From the NCBI GenBank assembly GCA_902790465.1, contig CADASF010000021.1, positions 1-32,811 of the forward strand: a stretch of 32,811 bases of DNA, given 5' to 3'. Each line of letters opens with the position of its first letter. The stretch's first letter is position 1. Origin of the DNA: an uncultured bacterium (GTDB lineage Bacteria > Vulcanimicrobiota > CADAWZ01). The notes under the pieces are model-generated. The model was not told the DNA's origin, made no database searches, and was given only the letters and a program-made list of their open reading frames with translations. Made by a program: the position numbers and the translations under genes. Shown here piece by piece: positions 6,157 through 30,803 of the stretch.

Positions 6157-7962
6157 ATGATAGATTACAACAACTATATAACTTCAGAAATTAGAGAGGC
6201 ATTTCAATCAACAGGGTTACTTTTTCTGATAAGAAAAGATATTGAACGCTCTGCTGAATTAATTTTAAATTCCATAAAATCAGGTGGAAAACTCATGATA
6301 TGTGGAAATGGCGGAAGTGCGGCAGATTCTCAACACATGGCAGCTGAATTAGTTGGCAGATTTGAAAAAGAAAGAAGTGGAATCCCTGCAATAGCACTTA
6401 CAACAGACACCTCAAACCTAACATCAATAGCAAATGATTATTCATTTGCAGACATATATAAAAGGCAAGTTGAGGCACTTGGCAGAAAAAATGATGTACT
6501 AATTGGTATAAGTACCTCTGGAAATTCTGAAAATATAGTTGAAGCATTAAAATTTGCAAAAGAAAAAGAAATAAAAACAATATCTTTTTCAGGTTCTTCA
6601 AATGGAAAAGTTGATCAATACTCTGATATAAAAATAAAAGTTCCTTCATCAAGAACATGTAGAATTCAAGAACTTCATGGAATAGTAATACATATAATAT
6701 GTGGAATAATAGAAAAAGAAATTGCTAAAATAAATGAAAAAACTGAAAATCAAGCAGAAACAAAACATGTTGTTACAGTGCCAAATATTTTAAAAAGCGA
6801 TAGAAAATCATTAAATATTGCAATATTTACAAATGCCTACAAGCCAATAATAAGTGGTGTTGTAAATTGTATCGATTTGATGAGAAAAAATCTACAAAAA
6901 AAGGGACACAATGTATATATATTTGCTCCTAATTTTCAAGATTATGAAGATCCAAAAGATGAACATGTTTTCAGATATCCATCCCTAAACCTAACAAATA
7001 AGGTAAAATTTCCAATTCCTTTGCCTTTTTATCCAAAAGCTGAAAAATTTCTCTCTGAAACCCCAATAGATATAATACATTGTCATCATCCATTTATATT
7101 GGGGGAAGAAGGTGTAAAATGGGCTACAAAATTAAATGTTCCACTATTTTTTACTTTCCACACTCAATACGAAATGTATTCTCATTATATTCCACTACCT
7201 CAAGATTTTGTAAAATCTGTTTCAAAAAGTGTTGTTTCTTCATTTACAAAGAAATGTTCTGTCATAATAACACCTGGAACAGCTATTGTTGATTTAATAA
7301 AAAAAGACTACGGCATAAATAAAAATGTCATATATATGAGAAACTCAATAGAATTAGATGATTTCAAAAATCCAAATAGACAAAAAGTCAGAGAAAAATA
7401 TGGAATAAAAGAAAACGAAAAACTTCTTATCTATGTGGGAAGAATGGCACCTGAAAAAAATATTCCATTTATGCTCGACTCATTTAAAAAGATATCAGAA
7501 AAAAATCCATCAAAATTATTAATAGTTGGAGAAGGTTCAGAAATTGAAAACTTAAAACAATACGCAAAAGATCATGGTCTAGAAAACAAGGCTATATTTA
7601 CAGGTAGAGTTGAATATAAAGAAATCCCTAATTACTACGGTGCTTCAGATTTATTTATAATGACATCTAAAACAGAAGTCAAACCACTTGCACTTCTAGA
7701 AGCAATGGCGACAGGTCTTCCAATAATTGCAGTTTCTGCTTGTGGAGCTTCTGACACTATACAAGATGGTATAAATGGATATTTAACATCTGAGAACATA
7801 GACGAATTTGCAAACAAAGTTTTAGAAGTAATAAATGACAACGAGAAACTAAAAAGAATGAGTGAAGAAAGTTTAAAAATAGCTGATTCATATTCAGCTG
7901 ACAAAATGACAGATAAACTAATAGAATTATATAAAGAAGAGATTATCAAAAAAAGCATATAA
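6157..7962 (+). CDS. Fusion: GmhA-like SIS isomerase + family 4 glycosyltransferase
   Basis: Residues 1-190 match phosphoheptose isomerase (GmhA, sedoheptulose-7-phosphate to D-glycero-heptose-7-phosphate): CGNGGSAADSQHMAAELVGRF (49-69), GISTSGNSENIVEAL (117-131) and IQELHGIVIHI (170-180). The catalytic Glu and His expected from E. coli GmhA correspond to Glu64 and His179, both present. After a linker (about 190-216), residues 218-600 are a GT-B glycosyltransferase of family GT4, closest in style to diacylglycerol glucosyltransferases and MGDG-type enzymes: FTNAYKPIISGVVNCI, the FHTQYEMYSHYIP segment, YVGRMAPEKN (426-435) and the E-x7-E motif (Glu507, Glu515). The reading frame is continuous and the linker has no stop or frameshift sign. 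Both activities point to cell-envelope glycan or glycolipid synthesis. An AGGGA site precedes the ATG. The specific donor and acceptor cannot be told from sequence. Confidence 0.85.
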   Translation: MIDYNNYITSEIREAFQSTGLLFLIRKDIERSAELILNSIKSGGKLMICGNGGSAADSQHMAAELVGRFEKERSGIPAIALTTDTSNLTSIANDYSFADIYKRQVEALGRKNDVLIGISTSGNSENIVEALKFAKEKEIKTISFSGSSNGKVDQYSDIKIKVPSSRTCRIQELHGIVIHIICGIIEKEIAKINEKTENQAETKHVVTVPNILKSDRKSLNIAIFTNAYKPIISGVVNCIDLMRKNLQKKGHNVYIFAPNFQDYEDPKDEHVFRYPSLNLTNKVKFPIPLPFYPKAEKFLSETPIDIIHCHHPFILGEEGVKWATKLNVPLFFTFHTQYEMYSHYIPLPQDFVKSVSKSVVSSFTKKCSVIITPGTAIVDLIKKDYGINKNVIYMRNSIELDDFKNPNRQKVREKYGIKENEKLLIYVGRMAPEKNIPFMLDSFKKISEKNPSKLLIVGEGSEIENLKQYAKDHGLENKAIFTGRVEYKEIPNYYGASDLFIMTSKTEVKPLALLEAMATGLPIIAVSACGASDTIQDGINGYLTSENIDEFANKVLEVINDNEKLKRMSEESLKIADSYSADKMTDKLIELYKEEIIKKSI

Positions 7963-8999: not shown

Positions 9000-9933
9000 T
9001 TTCTTTGGTTCAGAAAAATTTTCTCTCTCCATTCTTGAAAAATTATTTGAATCAGGATTTGAAATTGTATCTATTACGACAAAACCAGATGCTCCAAAAG
9101 GGCGTGGGAAAAACAATGCTCCAACAGTTGTATCCGATTTTGGCATAGAACATGGAATAAAAGTTCTAAAGCCAAATAAATTAAAATCAGAAGAATATAT
9201 CCAAGAACTAAAAAATTCAAATGCAGATTTAGCAGTTTTATGTTCGTATGGAAAAATACTTCCAAGAGATGTATTGGAATTGTTTCCAAATGGTTGTATA
9301 TGTATTCATCCCTCTTTATTGCCAAAATACAGAGGAGCAACTCCAATAGAATCAGCTTTAAAAGCAGGAGAAAAAGAGACAGGTGTTTCAATATTCTACA
9401 TGGATGAGGGTTGTGATACAGGGGATATAATAATACAAGATAAAATACAAGTTTTAGAAGATGATACAAGAGAGAGTTTAAGAGAAAAATTAGCCCCATT
9501 GGCTTCAGATATGACTTTAAAAGCAGTTAAATCAATAGAAAATGGAACAGCTCCAAGAATTAAACAAATTGATTCTGATGCTTCATATACAAAACTTATA
9601 AAAAATGAAGATATGGAAATAAATTGGAATACAACATCTGAAGAAATAAAAAATCAGATAAGATCGATTTGGACAGAACCTGGAGCAAGGACAACTTTTA
9701 GAGGAAAAAATTTAATTATTGGACCTGTTCAAATAATTGATGAAATATCAAATTTAGAACCAGGAAGTGTAGTAAAAACAATAAAAAACAAGGGAATTTG
9801 TATAGCTTCAAAAAATGGAACAATTCTTTTAGGTGATGTAAAACCTGAAGGTAAAAAAATAATGACTTCATGGCAATTTGCCTGTGGATGTCAACCAAAA
9901 ACTGGTGAAATACTGGGAAAGGTAAAAAAATGA
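8989..9933 (+). CDS. fmt: Methionyl-tRNA formyltransferase, catalytic Asn replaced by Cys
   Basis: The enzyme formylates initiator Met-tRNA with 10-formyl-tetrahydrofolate. The N-terminal hydrolase domain shows FFGSEKFS (5-12), SYGKILPRDVL (87-96), HPSLLPKYRGATPI (107-120) and MDEGCDTGDI (138-147). The C-terminal domain follows from about 205 and includes a typical LLGDVKPEGKK strand region. Length (314) is normal. In the catalytic motif the family has Asn-x-His (Asn106, His108, with Asp144, in E. coli). Here it reads Cys105-Ile-His107, with Asp143 kept. The Cys codon is TGT at 9301-9303; two base changes are needed to reach an Asn codon, so a simple read error is unlikely. The frame is otherwise intact. 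It ends in an ATGA overlap with the next gene. Confidence 0.93.
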   Translation: MKINFFGSEKFSLSILEKLFESGFEIVSITTKPDAPKGRGKNNAPTVVSDFGIEHGIKVLKPNKLKSEEYIQELKNSNADLAVLCSYGKILPRDVLELFPNGCICIHPSLLPKYRGATPIESALKAGEKETGVSIFYMDEGCDTGDIIIQDKIQVLEDDTRESLREKLAPLASDMTLKAVKSIENGTAPRIKQIDSDASYTKLIKNEDMEINWNTTSEEIKNQIRSIWTEPGARTTFRGKNLIIGPVQIIDEISNLEPGSVVKTIKNKGICIASKNGTILLGDVKPEGKKIMTSWQFACGCQPKTGEILGKVKK

Positions 9934-11588
9934 GAAAAACAACTATTTTTACATTAATAACATTCATTGTATCTATATGTATTTGTTTTTCAACAGTAAA
10001 TGCTCAAAATGATAAAAAACAAAATACAAACAATGAAAAAAAGACAGTAACAGCTCCTATAGTAAAGCCAAACAATGAATTATTAAAAACTTGTAAAGAC
10101 AGAATACAGGCAATTTCCATGGCAATAGAATTATGGGCAAATGATCACAATGGAAAATTGCCAACAAAAGAAGAATTTATCTCTGATGAATTTTTCAAAT
10201 ATGTAGAAAAAACAGGCATTGGTATTGGTCAAAAAAATATGTTTTGTTGTGATGAAGAAAATACATACCAATATTTTCCATTAGGCAACAACTATATGAT
10301 AAAATGTCCAAATCCATGGCTTCACAATGCTTCTGCATATTATTTCAATAAAAACGAAGGAACTGTTACAGCTAAGGGAACTCCAGTTGAAGACAACAAA
10401 ATAAAAGAAGTAAGAGAAGCAAATAAAAAGACAATATTTAATACAACTGGAATAAAAAAGAATGCAGAAGAACGCAAAAAAGCTGAACAAATAGCTAAAG
10501 AGAAAGCTAAAAAAGAACAAATAGCTAAAGAAAAGGCTGAAAAAGAGAGAATAGCCAAAGAAAAAGCTGAAAAAGATAAAGTAGCTAAAGAGAAAGCTGA
10601 AAAAGATAAAGTAGCTAAAGAGAAAGCTGAAAAAGACAAAGTAGCTAAAGAGAAAGCTGAAAAAGACAAAGTAGCTAAAGAGAAAGCTGAAAAAGATAAA
10701 GTAGCTAAAGAGAAAGCTGAAAAAGATAAAGTAGCTAAAGAAAAGGCTGAAAAAGACAAAATAGCTAAAGAGAAAGCTGAAAAAGACAAAATAGCTAAAG
10801 AGAAAGCTGAAAAAGATAAAGTAGCTAAAGAGAAAGCTGAAAAAGACAAAATAGCTAAAGAAAAGGCTGAAAAGCCAATGACTTTAAAAGAAAAAGCCCA
10901 AAAAGAACAAGCTCTAAGAGACAAAGTTGTAAAAGGTCAATGGGTAAATCCAACAGCTAAAAAAGATACAAATAAAGTTCAAAAAACACCTGAACAAATA
11001 GCTAAAGAAAAAGCTCAAAAAGAACAAGCTCTAAGAGACAAAGCATTAAAAGAAAAAACAGCAAAAGAACAAGAAGCAAGAGATAAGGCATTAAAAGAAA
11101 AGGCTGAAAAGGAAAGAATCGCAAAAGAAAAAGCTCAAAAAGAGAGAAAGAAAAATCCAAATGAGCTAACTCCTACAGAAAAAGAAGCAATAATATCTGT
11201 CATAAAAGAATTTTATGATGCCTATGCTTCAAAAGATTTAGATAAAGTAATGGAAATGCAGAAAAATTCAGTTGAAGAATCTGCAATAGAATATGAAAAG
11301 CAAGGCAAAGGAAAAGCCCAAGATGTCAGAGATGCCTATAGAGCAGCAACAAAGGAAATAATGGAACATAAACAGTTTAAAATGCTTCCAATAAACCTCT
11401 CTGATATAACATTTAGAAAAAAAGGAAAACTTTGTAGAGTAACAAGTGTTGTTCCAATCATAGCAACAGAAAGACTTGAAATTGTAGAAGATGGAAAATA
11501 TTTCTTTGTTAGATTGAGAATTGGAGAATTTGTTTTTGAATCTGAAGATGAAAATACTTGGAAAATAAAAACAATGTATCTATATTAA
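9930..11588 (+). CDS. Secreted Lys/Glu-repeat protein with pilin-like and NTF2-like ends
   Basis: Residues 1-25 look like a signal peptide with cleavage after VNA. Residues about 51-133 (CKDRIQAISMAIELWANDHNGKLP, then CPNPWLHN) resemble the globular part of type IV pilin/pseudopilin-like proteins, where a short helix, an N/D-N-G-x-x-P turn and a Tyr/Cys-rich end recur; the pilin membrane helix and prepilin site are missing. Residues 186-315 are thirteen 10-residue units of the type DKVAKEKAEK, probably a long, rigid, highly charged helix, followed by looser repeats to about 408. Residues about 412-552 (EKEAIISVIKEFYDAYASKDLDKVMEM, ending WKIKTMYLY) fit an NTF2/SnoaL-like fold. The start overlaps the fmt stop (ATGA), so it is translationally coupled. 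The likely place is the periplasm or cell surface. A TolA-like spacer role is conceivable, but no TolA membrane anchor or domain is seen. Confidence 0.75.
   Translation: MRKTTIFTLITFIVSICICFSTVNAQNDKKQNTNNEKKTVTAPIVKPNNELLKTCKDRIQAISMAIELWANDHNGKLPTKEEFISDEFFKYVEKTGIGIGQKNMFCCDEENTYQYFPLGNNYMIKCPNPWLHNASAYYFNKNEGTVTAKGTPVEDNKIKEVREANKKTIFNTTGIKKNAEERKKAEQIAKEKAKKEQIAKEKAEKERIAKEKAEKDKVAKEKAEKDKVAKEKAEKDKVAKEKAEKDKVAKEKAEKDKVAKEKAEKDKVAKEKAEKDKIAKEKAEKDKIAKEKAEKDKVAKEKAEKDKIAKEKAEKPMTLKEKAQKEQALRDKVVKGQWVNPTAKKDTNKVQKTPEQIAKEKAQKEQALRDKALKEKTAKEQEARDKALKEKAEKERIAKEKAQKERKKNPNELTPTEKEAIISVIKEFYDAYASKDLDKVMEMQKNSVEESAIEYEKQGKGKAQDVRDAYRAATKEIMEHKQFKMLPINLSDITFRKKGKLCRVTSVVPIIATERLEIVEDGKYFFVRLRIGEFVFESEDENTWKIKTMYLY
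10485..10874 (+). repeat. Thirteen tandem 30-bp coding repeats
   Basis: Each 30-bp unit encodes ten residues of the pattern [DE]-[KQR]-[VI]-AKEKA-[EK]-K. The first three units vary (EQI, EQI, ERI); the next ten are DKV or DKI and differ at DNA level only by few bases (GTA/ATA, GAT/GAC, GAG/GAA). This near-identity suggests recent unit duplication, and the copy number is likely to vary between strains. More divergent units continue past 10874 within the same gene. Confidence 0.95.
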
Positions 11589-26980: not shown

Positions 26981-27403
26981 TTACTTTGCGTCTTTAGGTC
27001 TCTTTGAACCATATTTAGATCTTGACTGACGACGATTGTTTACTCCAGCTGTATCCATAGTACCTCTAATGATATGATATCTGATACCTGGGAGGTCTCT
27101 TACTCTTCCACCTCTGATCAATACGACAGAGTGCTCTTGAAGGTTATGACCAATACCTGGAATATAAGCAGTTACTTCGATACCGTTTGTAAGTCTAACT
27201 CTTGCAACTTTTCTAAGAGCTGAGTTTGGTTTCTTTGGGGTTATTGTCTTAACCTGTGTGCAAACTCCTCTTTTTTGTGGGGCTCCACCTAAATTGAATG
27301 TTTTCATTTTTAGAGAATTATAGCAAAATCCCAATGCTGGGCATTTGCTTTTCTTCTTTGGCGTTGTTCTGCCTTTTCTTACGAGTTGATTAATTGTAGG
27401 CAT
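26981..27403 (-). CDS. rpsL: Ribosomal protein S12, with an N-terminal insertion
   Basis: S12 contacts the decoding centre and is the streptomycin target. The core is very conserved ([30 protein letters not shown] and [24 protein letters not shown]). The Lys of [10 protein letters not shown], where many resistance changes map, is the ordinary Lys. Between CPAL and PQKRGVC there is an insertion of about 13-16 residues ([17 protein letters not shown], about 25-41) that most bacteria lack. At 140 residues it is longer than the usual 124. It is the first gene of the str operon, and GGAG lies 8 nt before the ATG. Confidence 0.97.
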
Positions 27404-27722: not shown

Positions 27723-30700
27723 ATGGACATAGAAAATAACGATGCCGTAATGAAAATTGAAGCAGAAGCTGAATTAAAATTACTTAGAGCAGTAATTGGA
27801 AACAGCCCTAAAAGAGATGAAATTATAGATGCTTTTTCAAAAGGCAATTTAACAGAAGGACTAAATGGCATATATGTAGCTGTTTTTCAATGTTTAAATG
27901 ACAGCGAAAAAATAACATCTAAAAAATTATCCCAAATGATTGATCCAGAAATGGCAGAATATCTATGTTCGGGAAGTCCAAGCATTGAAGAGACAGATAC
28001 TGCTTTAAAAGTTTTAAGAAGCAGACAAATTAACAAAAATAATATCAATCAAAGAATAAATGATCAAAAAGACAAAATAAGATTAATTTCCGACAAATTA
28101 GACCAAGGTGAAATAACTGCAGAAATTTGGAGTAAAGCTGTAAGTGAAATAATGCAGTTACAATATGGCGAAGAAAAAAACAGCAAAAATTCAGAAACTG
28201 TGATGTTACTCGAAGAAATATCACGACTTGCTGAAGAAAACAAATCCCATTTACAAGAGATTGACACATTTGAAGAAAAAGAAAAAAAATTTAAAACTGA
28301 AATAAAAAATAAAAATATGGAACTCTCAGATTTAAAGAGAGAAATAAGAATAAAAGATTCAGCTATAAATGTACAAAACAGCAAAATAGATGAATTAAAC
28401 AAAATACTGAAAGAAGAGAGAAAAAGACTAAAAGATGAAAAGAAGAAAAATGCTGACAATCAAGAAAAAATTGCAGAAGTTGACAGTTTAACAGAAGAAT
28501 TAGAAACAACAATAAAGAAAGTTGACGAATTGACAGCTTCTTTAAAATTGAGCGATAATGCAGTTCAAGAACAGAGTGAAAAAATAAAAAAACTAAATGA
28601 AGAACTAAAGAAAAAAGATGAAGATGAAAAAATAAAAATACAACAGAGTAAGAAAACTTTTGAACAACAAATAAACAATCTAAATGAAATAATAAAAAAT
28701 TTGAAAGATGAAATAAAAGAGAGAATAGAAAAAGATGAAAATAAAAATACAGCCATAGAAGAATTGATAAAAGACAACACAAATCTGAAAGAAAAAGTGC
28801 AAAAATTGGAAGATGAATTAAAAAATAGAGATGAAGAAGATAAAACAAAAGATAATGATGACAACTCAGAAAAAATAGAACAACTTGAAAATAAAATAAA
28901 AGAACTTGAAAAAGAACTTGAACTTAAAGATGAAGAAGCAAAGACTATACAAAAAGATGAAGATTCACAAAAAGAAATTGAAAGACTAAATGATAAAATA
29001 AAAGAACTTGAACAAGAACTAAAAATCAAAGATGAAGAAGCAAAAACAATAAAAGAAGATGATAAGAAAACAAAAGATGATGAAAGCTCACAAAATGAAA
29101 TAGATGAATTAAAAGAGAGAATAAAAGAACTTGAACAAGAACTAAAAATCAAAGATGAAGAAGCAAAAACAATAAAAGAAGATGATAAGAAAACAGAAGA
29201 TGATGAAAACTCACAAAATGAAACAGACGAACTAAAAGAGAGAATAAAAGAACTTGAACAAGAACTAAAAATTAAAGATGAAGAAGCAAAAACAATAAAA
29301 GAAGATGAAAATTCTGAACAAGAAGCATTTGAACAAGAACTGAACAATCTAAATGAAATAATACAACATCTTGAAACTGAATTAAAAACAAGAGATGAAG
29401 AAGATAAAATAAAAAATAGTGAAAACAATCTACTAAAAGATAAATATGAACAAGAAATCAAGGGATTAAATATAAAAATACAAAAACTTGAATCCGAATT
29501 AGATACAATAAATGAATTAAATGACATAAGTATAACTGCAAATAATGACTCCAAAATAGAAAAACTTGAAGATAAAATAAAATCTCTTGAAGAAGAATTG
29601 AAAAAAAGAGATGAACTTGAAGCTGAATTTGATGAAAGAGAAATTGAATTTGCAGAAAATATTAGAAATCTAATAAAAGAAAATCAAGAATTACAAGAAA
29701 AAGCAAAAACTCTTGAATCAAAAGAAGAGGAAATAAAGAAATTACATGAAGATTTGAAAAAAGCAGAAAAGAAAAACACCCATGTAATTCATGAAGTTGT
29801 AAACAAACAAGAATTAAGTCAAGAAAGCACATTCAATTTTGAAGATGACGAACTTTTAGATATAGTATTGCAAAACATAAGAGAAGGCTATCCTTCTTTA
29901 AATAATCCTATGAAAATAGGAGTTGATCAAATACAGATAAATAGAAGACTTGGCGGATTACAGGGAATAACAGCAATATGTGGCAATTCACAATGTGGAA
30001 AAACCTCTCTTGCTCTTCAATTTTCTCTTGAATCTCTAATGAACAATGAAAGCGGATTCGTTCTTTTCTATACATCTGATCATCTACCAGAAGAGATGTA
30101 TTGCAGAATGACTTCTCAACTTTCTGGAATAGATTTGCAAGAAATCCAATATGGCTCTATAAATTTTGAAGATGAACAGATAGTTGACATTATAAATCAG
30201 GCATGTACATTGATATCATCATTCAAAAATAGGCTAAAAATAATAAGTGCAGAACATTTTCCAAAATCTGTTGAAGAACTAAAAAGCCAAATAGAATCAA
30301 TGGTAAAATTTACAAACGGCGGAAGAGGTCTAATTGTAATAGATTCAATGAGAGGAATGGTTGCCGAATTAAAAGATGATGAGCAACATATTATAAATAC
30401 ACTTAGAAAAATGATAAATACATATTCTCTCACTACAATAATTACGAAATATGGCAAAAAAACAGATAAAGATGAAGCAATAAATTCGGCTGACACTGTC
30501 CTTGAATTCCAAGCAGATAGAGTTGTAAAAAATAAAGACACAGGAGAAAATGATCTTATCATACAGGCAATGTCAAGATATACAGAGCCATTCCAGATAC
30601 AGATGACATTCTCTCCAAAGACATGTTTCTTCAATGCAAGAAATAAAAAATTCAAAGCAAGAGTTGTTATGAGTGATGAAGTTACAAATATTGGAAATAA

Positions 30701-30803
30701 GATTGTCAAAAAAGTACCACTTCCACAAGCTCAATATACACCTAAACCATTGATGACAGAAGAGGCAAAACCACAACAGCAAAATTTATACGAGATATTG
30801 TAA
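27723..30803 (+). CDS. DnaG/DnaB-like domain + long coiled coil + DnaB-like ATPase
   Basis: This 1026-residue protein has three parts. Residues about 12-150 resemble the helicase-interaction fold shared by the DnaG C-terminus and DnaB N-terminus: a helical bundle opening with EAELKLLRAVIGNSPKRDEI, a middle IYVAVFQCL, and ending ALKVLRSRQINKNNINQRI and QGEITAEIWSKAVSEIMQLQ. Residues about 155-700 are a highly charged coiled coil, including a 41-residue repeat. Residues about 715-1010 are a RecA-type ATPase of DnaB style: LGGLQGITAICGN, Walker A GNSQCGKT (754-761), Walker B GLIVIDS (Asp874), then ADTVLEFQADRV and an end strand like the DnaB C-terminus. I do not see a classical DnaB arginine-finger sequence. 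The ATG at 27723 has GGAG at 9 nt; an in-frame TTG lies at 27708. The role may be a replication or DNA-motor accessory; this is inference. It is divergent from rpsL and alone in its unit. Confidence 0.75.
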   Translation: MDIENNDAVMKIEAEAELKLLRAVIGNSPKRDEIIDAFSKGNLTEGLNGIYVAVFQCLNDSEKITSKKLSQMIDPEMAEYLCSGSPSIEETDTALKVLRSRQINKNNINQRINDQKDKIRLISDKLDQGEITAEIWSKAVSEIMQLQYGEEKNSKNSETVMLLEEISRLAEENKSHLQEIDTFEEKEKKFKTEIKNKNMELSDLKREIRIKDSAINVQNSKIDELNKILKEERKRLKDEKKKNADNQEKIAEVDSLTEELETTIKKVDELTASLKLSDNAVQEQSEKIKKLNEELKKKDEDEKIKIQQSKKTFEQQINNLNEIIKNLKDEIKERIEKDENKNTAIEELIKDNTNLKEKVQKLEDELKNRDEEDKTKDNDDNSEKIEQLENKIKELEKELELKDEEAKTIQKDEDSQKEIERLNDKIKELEQELKIKDEEAKTIKEDDKKTKDDESSQNEIDELKERIKELEQELKIKDEEAKTIKEDDKKTEDDENSQNETDELKERIKELEQELKIKDEEAKTIKEDENSEQEAFEQELNNLNEIIQHLETELKTRDEEDKIKNSENNLLKDKYEQEIKGLNIKIQKLESELDTINELNDISITANNDSKIEKLEDKIKSLEEELKKRDELEAEFDEREIEFAENIRNLIKENQELQEKAKTLESKEEEIKKLHEDLKKAEKKNTHVIHEVVNKQELSQESTFNFEDDELLDIVLQNIREGYPSLNNPMKIGVDQIQINRRLGGLQGITAICGNSQCGKTSLALQFSLESLMNNESGFVLFYTSDHLPEEMYCRMTSQLSGIDLQEIQYGSINFEDEQIVDIINQACTLISSFKNRLKIISAEHFPKSVEELKSQIESMVKFTNGGRGLIVIDSMRGMVAELKDDEQHIINTLRKMINTYSLTTIITKYGKKTDKDEAINSADTVLEFQADRVVKNKDTGENDLIIQAMSRYTEPFQIQMTFSPKTCFFNARNKKFKARVVMSDEVTNIGNKIVKKVPLPQAQYTPKPLMTEEAKPQQQNLYEIL
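28977..29310 (+). repeat. Tandem 123-bp coding repeat in the coiled coil
   Basis: The 41-residue unit around ELKERIKELEQELKIKDEEA is repeated almost three times at exact 123-nt spacing (the GAACTTGAACAAGAA start is at 29004, 29127 and 29250). A more degenerate unit lies just upstream. The high DNA identity implies recent duplication, and 41 residues is not a whole number of heptads, so the coil phase must shift once per unit. Confidence 0.85.

Follow-up and report, generated by a model that had tools for sequence, protein, structure and literature searches.

A divergent, order-specific DnaB-like paralog with its linker predicted to be expanded into a coiled-coil stalk

Main finding

Judged from its sequence and predicted fold, the protein described here is a divergent, order-specific paralog of DnaB in which the linker between the two domains has been expanded into a coiled coil. 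It is encoded within a window of 32,811 nucleotides, the whole stretch of DNA analyzed. The window constitutes one entire contig (G000:C21), and the assembly to which it belongs has 121 contigs totaling 3.05 Mb. Three parts are recognizable in the protein, as the preliminary description had proposed: a helical N-terminal domain, a heptad coil of ~550 residues, and a RecA-type ATPase domain. The most distant ortholog, a 510-amino acid protein of genome G004, has both domains joined by a linker of only ~45 residues, as in DnaB. Because of this short linker, a single DnaB-like protein whose linker has been expanded is a simpler reading than a union of two unrelated modules. As to function, we tentatively favor an ATP-switched oligomeric scaffold or tether acting in replication or repair over a helicase.

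The gene for this stalk protein spans positions 27723–30803 (+ strand) and encodes 1,026 amino acids. Translation from 27708 (TTG) would give the longest open reading frame, but GGAG precedes the ATG at 27723, and the same-genus ortholog, which can be aligned from the first residue, matches this start. Canonical DnaB and canonical DnaG are encoded separately in the same genome.

The N-terminal domain

Residues 1–148 (27723–28166, + strand) form a helical domain, ending in a long helical hairpin, of the fold shared by the DnaB N-terminal domain (DnaB-N) and the helicase-binding DnaG C-terminal domain (DnaG-C). A profile of the aligned ortholog N domains was compared by hhalign with 19 DnaB N domains and 10 DnaG C domains from the same phylum, giving scores of 32.3 against DnaB-N (P = 1.4e-4) and 30.1 against DnaG-C (P = 3e-4). 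The best scores among 200 column shuffles were 17.4 and 23.6, respectively, and the reversed profile reached 9.4 and 10.9. With G004 left out, the scores were weaker, at 22.7 for DnaB-N (best of 100 shuffles, 20.1) and 22.0 for DnaG-C (best of 100 shuffles, 15.4). The G004 domain itself matched PF00772 (cut-off 23 bits), scoring 23.6 bits when genomes were searched and 21.3 bits in the protein scan. AlphaFold2 modeled the window domain with a pLDDT of 83.9 as seven helices, the long hairpin among them. When this model was used as a Foldseek query, the top eight of 350,542 PDB chains were all DnaB N-terminal or DnaG C-terminal domains, at weak E-values of 0.26 and above. The best match was 2r6a_C (141 residues), which we take to be the DnaG helicase-binding domain in a DnaB–DnaG complex; the DnaB chain 2r6a_A has 454 residues.

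Simpler searches were less revealing. The window N domain alone retrieved nothing meaningful from Pfam, NCBIfam, or PHROGs, plain HMMER searches of PDB sequences with the domain or its profile returned no DnaB or DnaG match, and the N-domain HMM recovered only the family itself from the genomes of relatives, leaving their DnaB and DnaG proteins unmatched. Taken together, the shuffle-controlled profile comparison, the fold search, and the PF00772 match of G004 identify a DnaB N-terminal domain in the family, an identification that is weak for the window sequence alone. The fold proposed in the preliminary description is thus borne out, and the region does not align solely to other coiled coils.

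Since the DnaB-N and DnaG-C folds are homologous (PMC12593628), similarity cannot separate the two identities, and the profile scores are nearly equal. Read from end to end, the protein has its domains in the same order as DnaB. DnaG carries zinc-binding and TOPRIM primase domains, neither of which was found in the stalk protein by Pfam and NCBIfam scans; unlike in DnaG, the DnaG-C-like domain stands at the N terminus and is followed by an ATPase.

The ATPase domain and its motifs

The RecA-type, DnaB-like ATPase domain comprises residues 703–985 (29829–30677, + strand). KaiC (PF06745) was its best single Pfam match (43 bits, cut-off 26.6), and DnaB_C scored 36.8 bits, above its cut-off when the domain was scanned alone. 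DnaB, not KaiC, came first in both profile and fold searches: hhalign matched the domain to DnaB with P = 2e-12; the eleven best PDB matches of the five-member profile were all replicative DnaB (6.6e-14 to 1e-7), followed by RecA, XRCC3, and KaiC; and a fold search ranked DnaB first despite a weak AlphaFold2 model (pLDDT 56.5). KaiC also has tandem CI and CII RecA domains, in contrast with the single RecA domain and DnaB-type N domain seen here. The DnaB-like character ascribed to the ATPase in the preliminary description therefore holds.

Aligning the five members of the family with seven DnaB proteins of the same phylum clarified which parts of the motor have been retained. The Walker A motif GNSQCGKT (residues 754–761, with Lys760; 29982–30005, + strand) and the Walker B residue Asp874 (motif H2; 30342–30344, + strand) lie where the preliminary description had placed them, as does the gene itself. 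Arg952 (30576–30578, + strand), part of an invariant Ser-Arg pair, aligns with the arginine finger of DnaB. Along with these elements, the domain order, the N-terminal fold, and the RecA core are held in common with DnaB (SF4; PF00772 plus PF03796). Beyond its ~550-residue linker and its coexistence with canonical DnaB in the same genome, the stalk protein differs from DnaB in lacking, in all five members, the H3 glutamine, the entire H4/DNA-loop segment (DLRESGxIEQ), and the lysine adjacent to the arginine finger. In addition, the catalytic glutamate of motif H1a is replaced by aspartate (Asp786; 30078–30080, + strand) in all four members from family f1, whereas G004 keeps the glutamate. The ATPase domain is followed by a C-terminal tail (30678–30800, + strand) whose first part is lysine-rich (NIGNKIVKK) and lies after an FKAR/FKAT motif kept in 5/5 members.

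The SF4 helicases are defined by motifs H1, H1a, H2, H3, and H4, and loss of the H1a glutamate is expected to permit nucleotide binding without hydrolysis (PMC5204125). We read the domain as nucleotide-binding and probably oligomeric, and DNA unwinding by the stalk protein appears unlikely given the loss of the H3 glutamine, the H4 segment, and the finger-adjacent lysine and the change of the catalytic glutamate to aspartate. The same losses bear on whether the protein could still be a genuine ring helicase whose stalk is extended, the RecA ring translocating on DNA and the coil keeping the N-terminal collar at a distance. The helicase-like motor of the preliminary description fits the intact Walker A, Walker B, and arginine finger and DnaB as the nearest solved relative, and it is weakened by the missing H3 and H4. 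An 80-nm linker, moreover, would tear apart the two-part ring of DnaB. We regard a ring helicase as very unlikely.

The coiled-coil stalk

Between the two domains, residues ~150–700 (28170–29822, + strand) have the hallmarks of a coiled coil. Over residues 151–700, the signal at the 3.5-residue heptad period reached z = 12.6 relative to composition shuffles; 51% of residues are charged, with no proline and a single glycine. A coiled coil rises 0.1485 nm per residue, and a stalk of 550 residues would thus make a rod of ~82 nm (roughly 80), if continuous.

The stalk contains a tandem repeat (28949–29308, + strand) with a 123-bp (41-amino acid) unit in 2.9 copies at 90% matches, and the same-genus ortholog has an independent array with a 114-bp (38-residue) unit, likewise in 2.9 copies. 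The 41-residue array is recent, and the stalk has been expanded partly by tandem duplication. The ortholog is split at its 114-bp array, with its halves on contigs C67 and C29 (L101 1–327 and L015 11426 to end); because the contig breaks there, the exact repeat number may be wrong in these metagenome assemblies. Stalk length ranges from about 550 residues in the window through 445 in G003 and ~290 in G002 to none in G004, so rod length is not conserved. Variable length and growth by tandem repeats are as expected of a spacer.

A long rod between terminal domains is also the design of SMC proteins and other long coiled-coil ATPases. The stalk protein might accordingly be a structural component of chromosome or cell architecture, in which the rod bridges, the RecA head clamps as a dimer or oligomer in an ATP-dependent manner, and the N domain merely dimerizes. 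The long heptad coil and its variable length would suit such a role, as would the purifying selection described below, and NCBIfam gave weak SMC matches, which are confined to the coil and of the low-complexity type. SMC proteins, however, build an ABC head from both ends and possess a hinge, whereas the head here is of the RecA/DnaB type and formed by the C terminus only. The N domain has a replisome fold, and both the DnaB ancestry and a neighboring exonuclease gene (see below) point to the replication fork instead. A structural role is therefore unlikely in our assessment.

Distribution and selection

With a family profile from which the coil had been removed, we searched five genomes of the order and 144 from elsewhere in the phylum. 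Orthologs with the same domain order were present in 5/5 genomes of the order, consistent with the conservation anticipated by the preliminary description, and 0/144 other genomes contained a member above the level of ordinary DnaB matches. Beyond the phylum, a single-sequence scan of genome contigs retrieved the same-genus record only; the restriction to the order consequently applies within the phylum. Within that scope, the stalk protein is real, conserved, and very lineage-restricted, belonging to one poorly sampled order. The preliminary description knew of no named family with this order of domains. The literature that we searched likewise contained no protein of such architecture.

Between two species of the genus, dN/dS was about 0.17 for the N-terminal domain and 0.14 for the ATPase, compared with about 0.03 for DnaB. 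The stalk gene is under purifying selection, and the protein is thus functional but faster-evolving than the core replisome. These data also speak to a possible origin from a phage or plasmid, as the leftover of a replication gene trapped in the chromosome. DnaB-like paralogs and fusions of AEP with helicase are characteristic of mobile elements (PMC5862659). However, phage and plasmid records held no match to the stalk protein, and an IMG/VR scan returned 18 loci (L083–L100) of DnaB-type or other RecA-type proteins, none with a coil. With purifying selection, presence throughout the order, and a fixed site beside rpsL in four genomes, such a remnant is highly improbable.

Genomic context and a proposed role

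In all four genomes of family f1, the stalk gene and rpsL, the first gene of the str operon (26981–27403, − strand, in the window; outside the protein and part of its context only), are divergent neighbors. In G004, the stalk gene is located elsewhere. The adjacency to rpsL hints at nothing specific. The preliminary description saw the gene as standing alone beside the str operon, which is contradicted by two related genera: in G002 and G003, a gene for a DnaQ-like DEDDh exonuclease (L011 7360–7977 and L012 1255–1863; RNase_T matches of 2e-20 and 1e-18) lies between rpsL and the stalk gene and is co-directional with the latter. The exonuclease and stalk genes adjoin in G002 and are separated by 58 bp in G003. 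In the genus of the window, the exonuclease gene is absent from the locus, and a search elsewhere yielded no close match, only a more distant DnaQ relative. PADLOC assigned the exonuclease and AEP proteins to generic DEDDh, PDC-S48, and PrimPol models, and the window protein had no match among its defense models.

Our preferred reading, an ATP-switched scaffold or tether without helicase activity, builds on what the protein has kept, namely the elements that serve ATP binding and subunit–subunit contact (Walker A, Walker B, and the Ser-Arg finger). An oligomer may form through the N domain, the coil, and the RecA domain, with ATP binding and slow hydrolysis switching it between states rather than pulling DNA. 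The N domain would dock either on DnaB or DnaG, as the helicase–primase hub, or on other copies of itself, and the ~80-nm rod would therefore keep the ATPase end and its lysine-containing tail distant from the fork. The preliminary description had proposed that the protein could tether or load a helicase or primase. In the two genera that encode it there, the DnaQ-like exonuclease could be similarly positioned away from the fork.

In favor of the scaffold or tether, we count the colinearity with DnaB, the coil-free intermediate in G004, and the DnaB profile and fold matches at both ends, followed by the motif losses in 5/5 members, purifying selection, presence in 5/5 genomes of the order, and the separate canonical DnaB and DnaG. 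The upstream exonuclease gene in G002 and G003 and the variable, repeat-grown stalk are counted on the same side. Against it we count the lack of the exonuclease gene at the locus in the genus of the window, the pLDDT of 56.5 for the ATPase model, an N-domain match unseen by plain HMMER in the PDB and in the DnaB and DnaG proteins of relatives, and the uninformative position beside rpsL.

A related AEP-primase-like fusion

The RecA domain closest to that of the stalk protein in the tree belongs to a second protein found in the same five genomes, an AEP-TOTE primase-like domain fused to DnaB_C (G000:C12:8494–10521, covered by L020 and L121; L014 5983–8025; L102 2712–4733; also L109 and L110). 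The two RecA domains group with support of 98/84 on long branches, and their profiles match with P = 1.8e-15. Outside the order, the fusion occurs in one other genome (G012), at 33% identity. It differs from the stalk protein in having an N-terminal primase-like domain instead of DnaB-N, in the absence of a long coil, and in a decayed Walker A in family f1, where all four genomes lack the Thr/Ser (GKH, GKN, or GKG) and retain the KNR finger. The motif is intact (GKT) in G004 and G012. This decay falls on the same branch as the coil gain and the Glu-to-Asp change of the stalk protein.

Such a pattern might arise if the two proteins were partners in a mixed RecA ring, with the stalk protein binding ATP and the AEP protein supplying the arginine finger. 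Their grouping in the tree, their profile match, their joint presence in 5/5 genomes of the order, and the shared split in family f1 against the GKT of G004 are compatible with this arrangement. The two genes are never adjacent, the gene context of the AEP fusion is not conserved, and the comparison involves five genomes and long tree branches. We consider the mixed ring quite unlikely, and very doubtful its extension into a new lineage-specific machine in which such a ring is joined by the rod to the DnaB/DnaG hub of the fork.

As a separate observation, the AEP fusion gene of G004 is divergent beside a tuf-secE-nusG-rplK operon (L014 4181–8025), an arrangement reminiscent of the stalk gene and rpsL in the other family.

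Broader implications and other genes of the window

DnaB and DnaG share a docking fold, and how helicase and primase modules came to be duplicated and reshuffled has yet to be settled (reviewed in PMC12593628). A single order here shows the DnaB linker going from ~45 residues to a rod of ~550 residues, with helicase motifs lost from the motor. A stalk protein bound to the fork would represent a replisome tether of a new kind; one that is not would exemplify a DnaB-type ATPase recruited to another role.

Elsewhere in the window, inspection by eye suggested two further unusual open reading frames. One (6157–7962, + strand; 601 amino acids) appears to fuse a phosphoheptose-isomerase (SIS/GmhA-like) domain to a GT4-type glycosyltransferase. 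The other (9930–11588, + strand; 552 amino acids) holds many near-identical 10-residue repeats (KEKAEKDKxA) that seem to be flanked by a secreted-like N-terminal part and a C-terminal domain.
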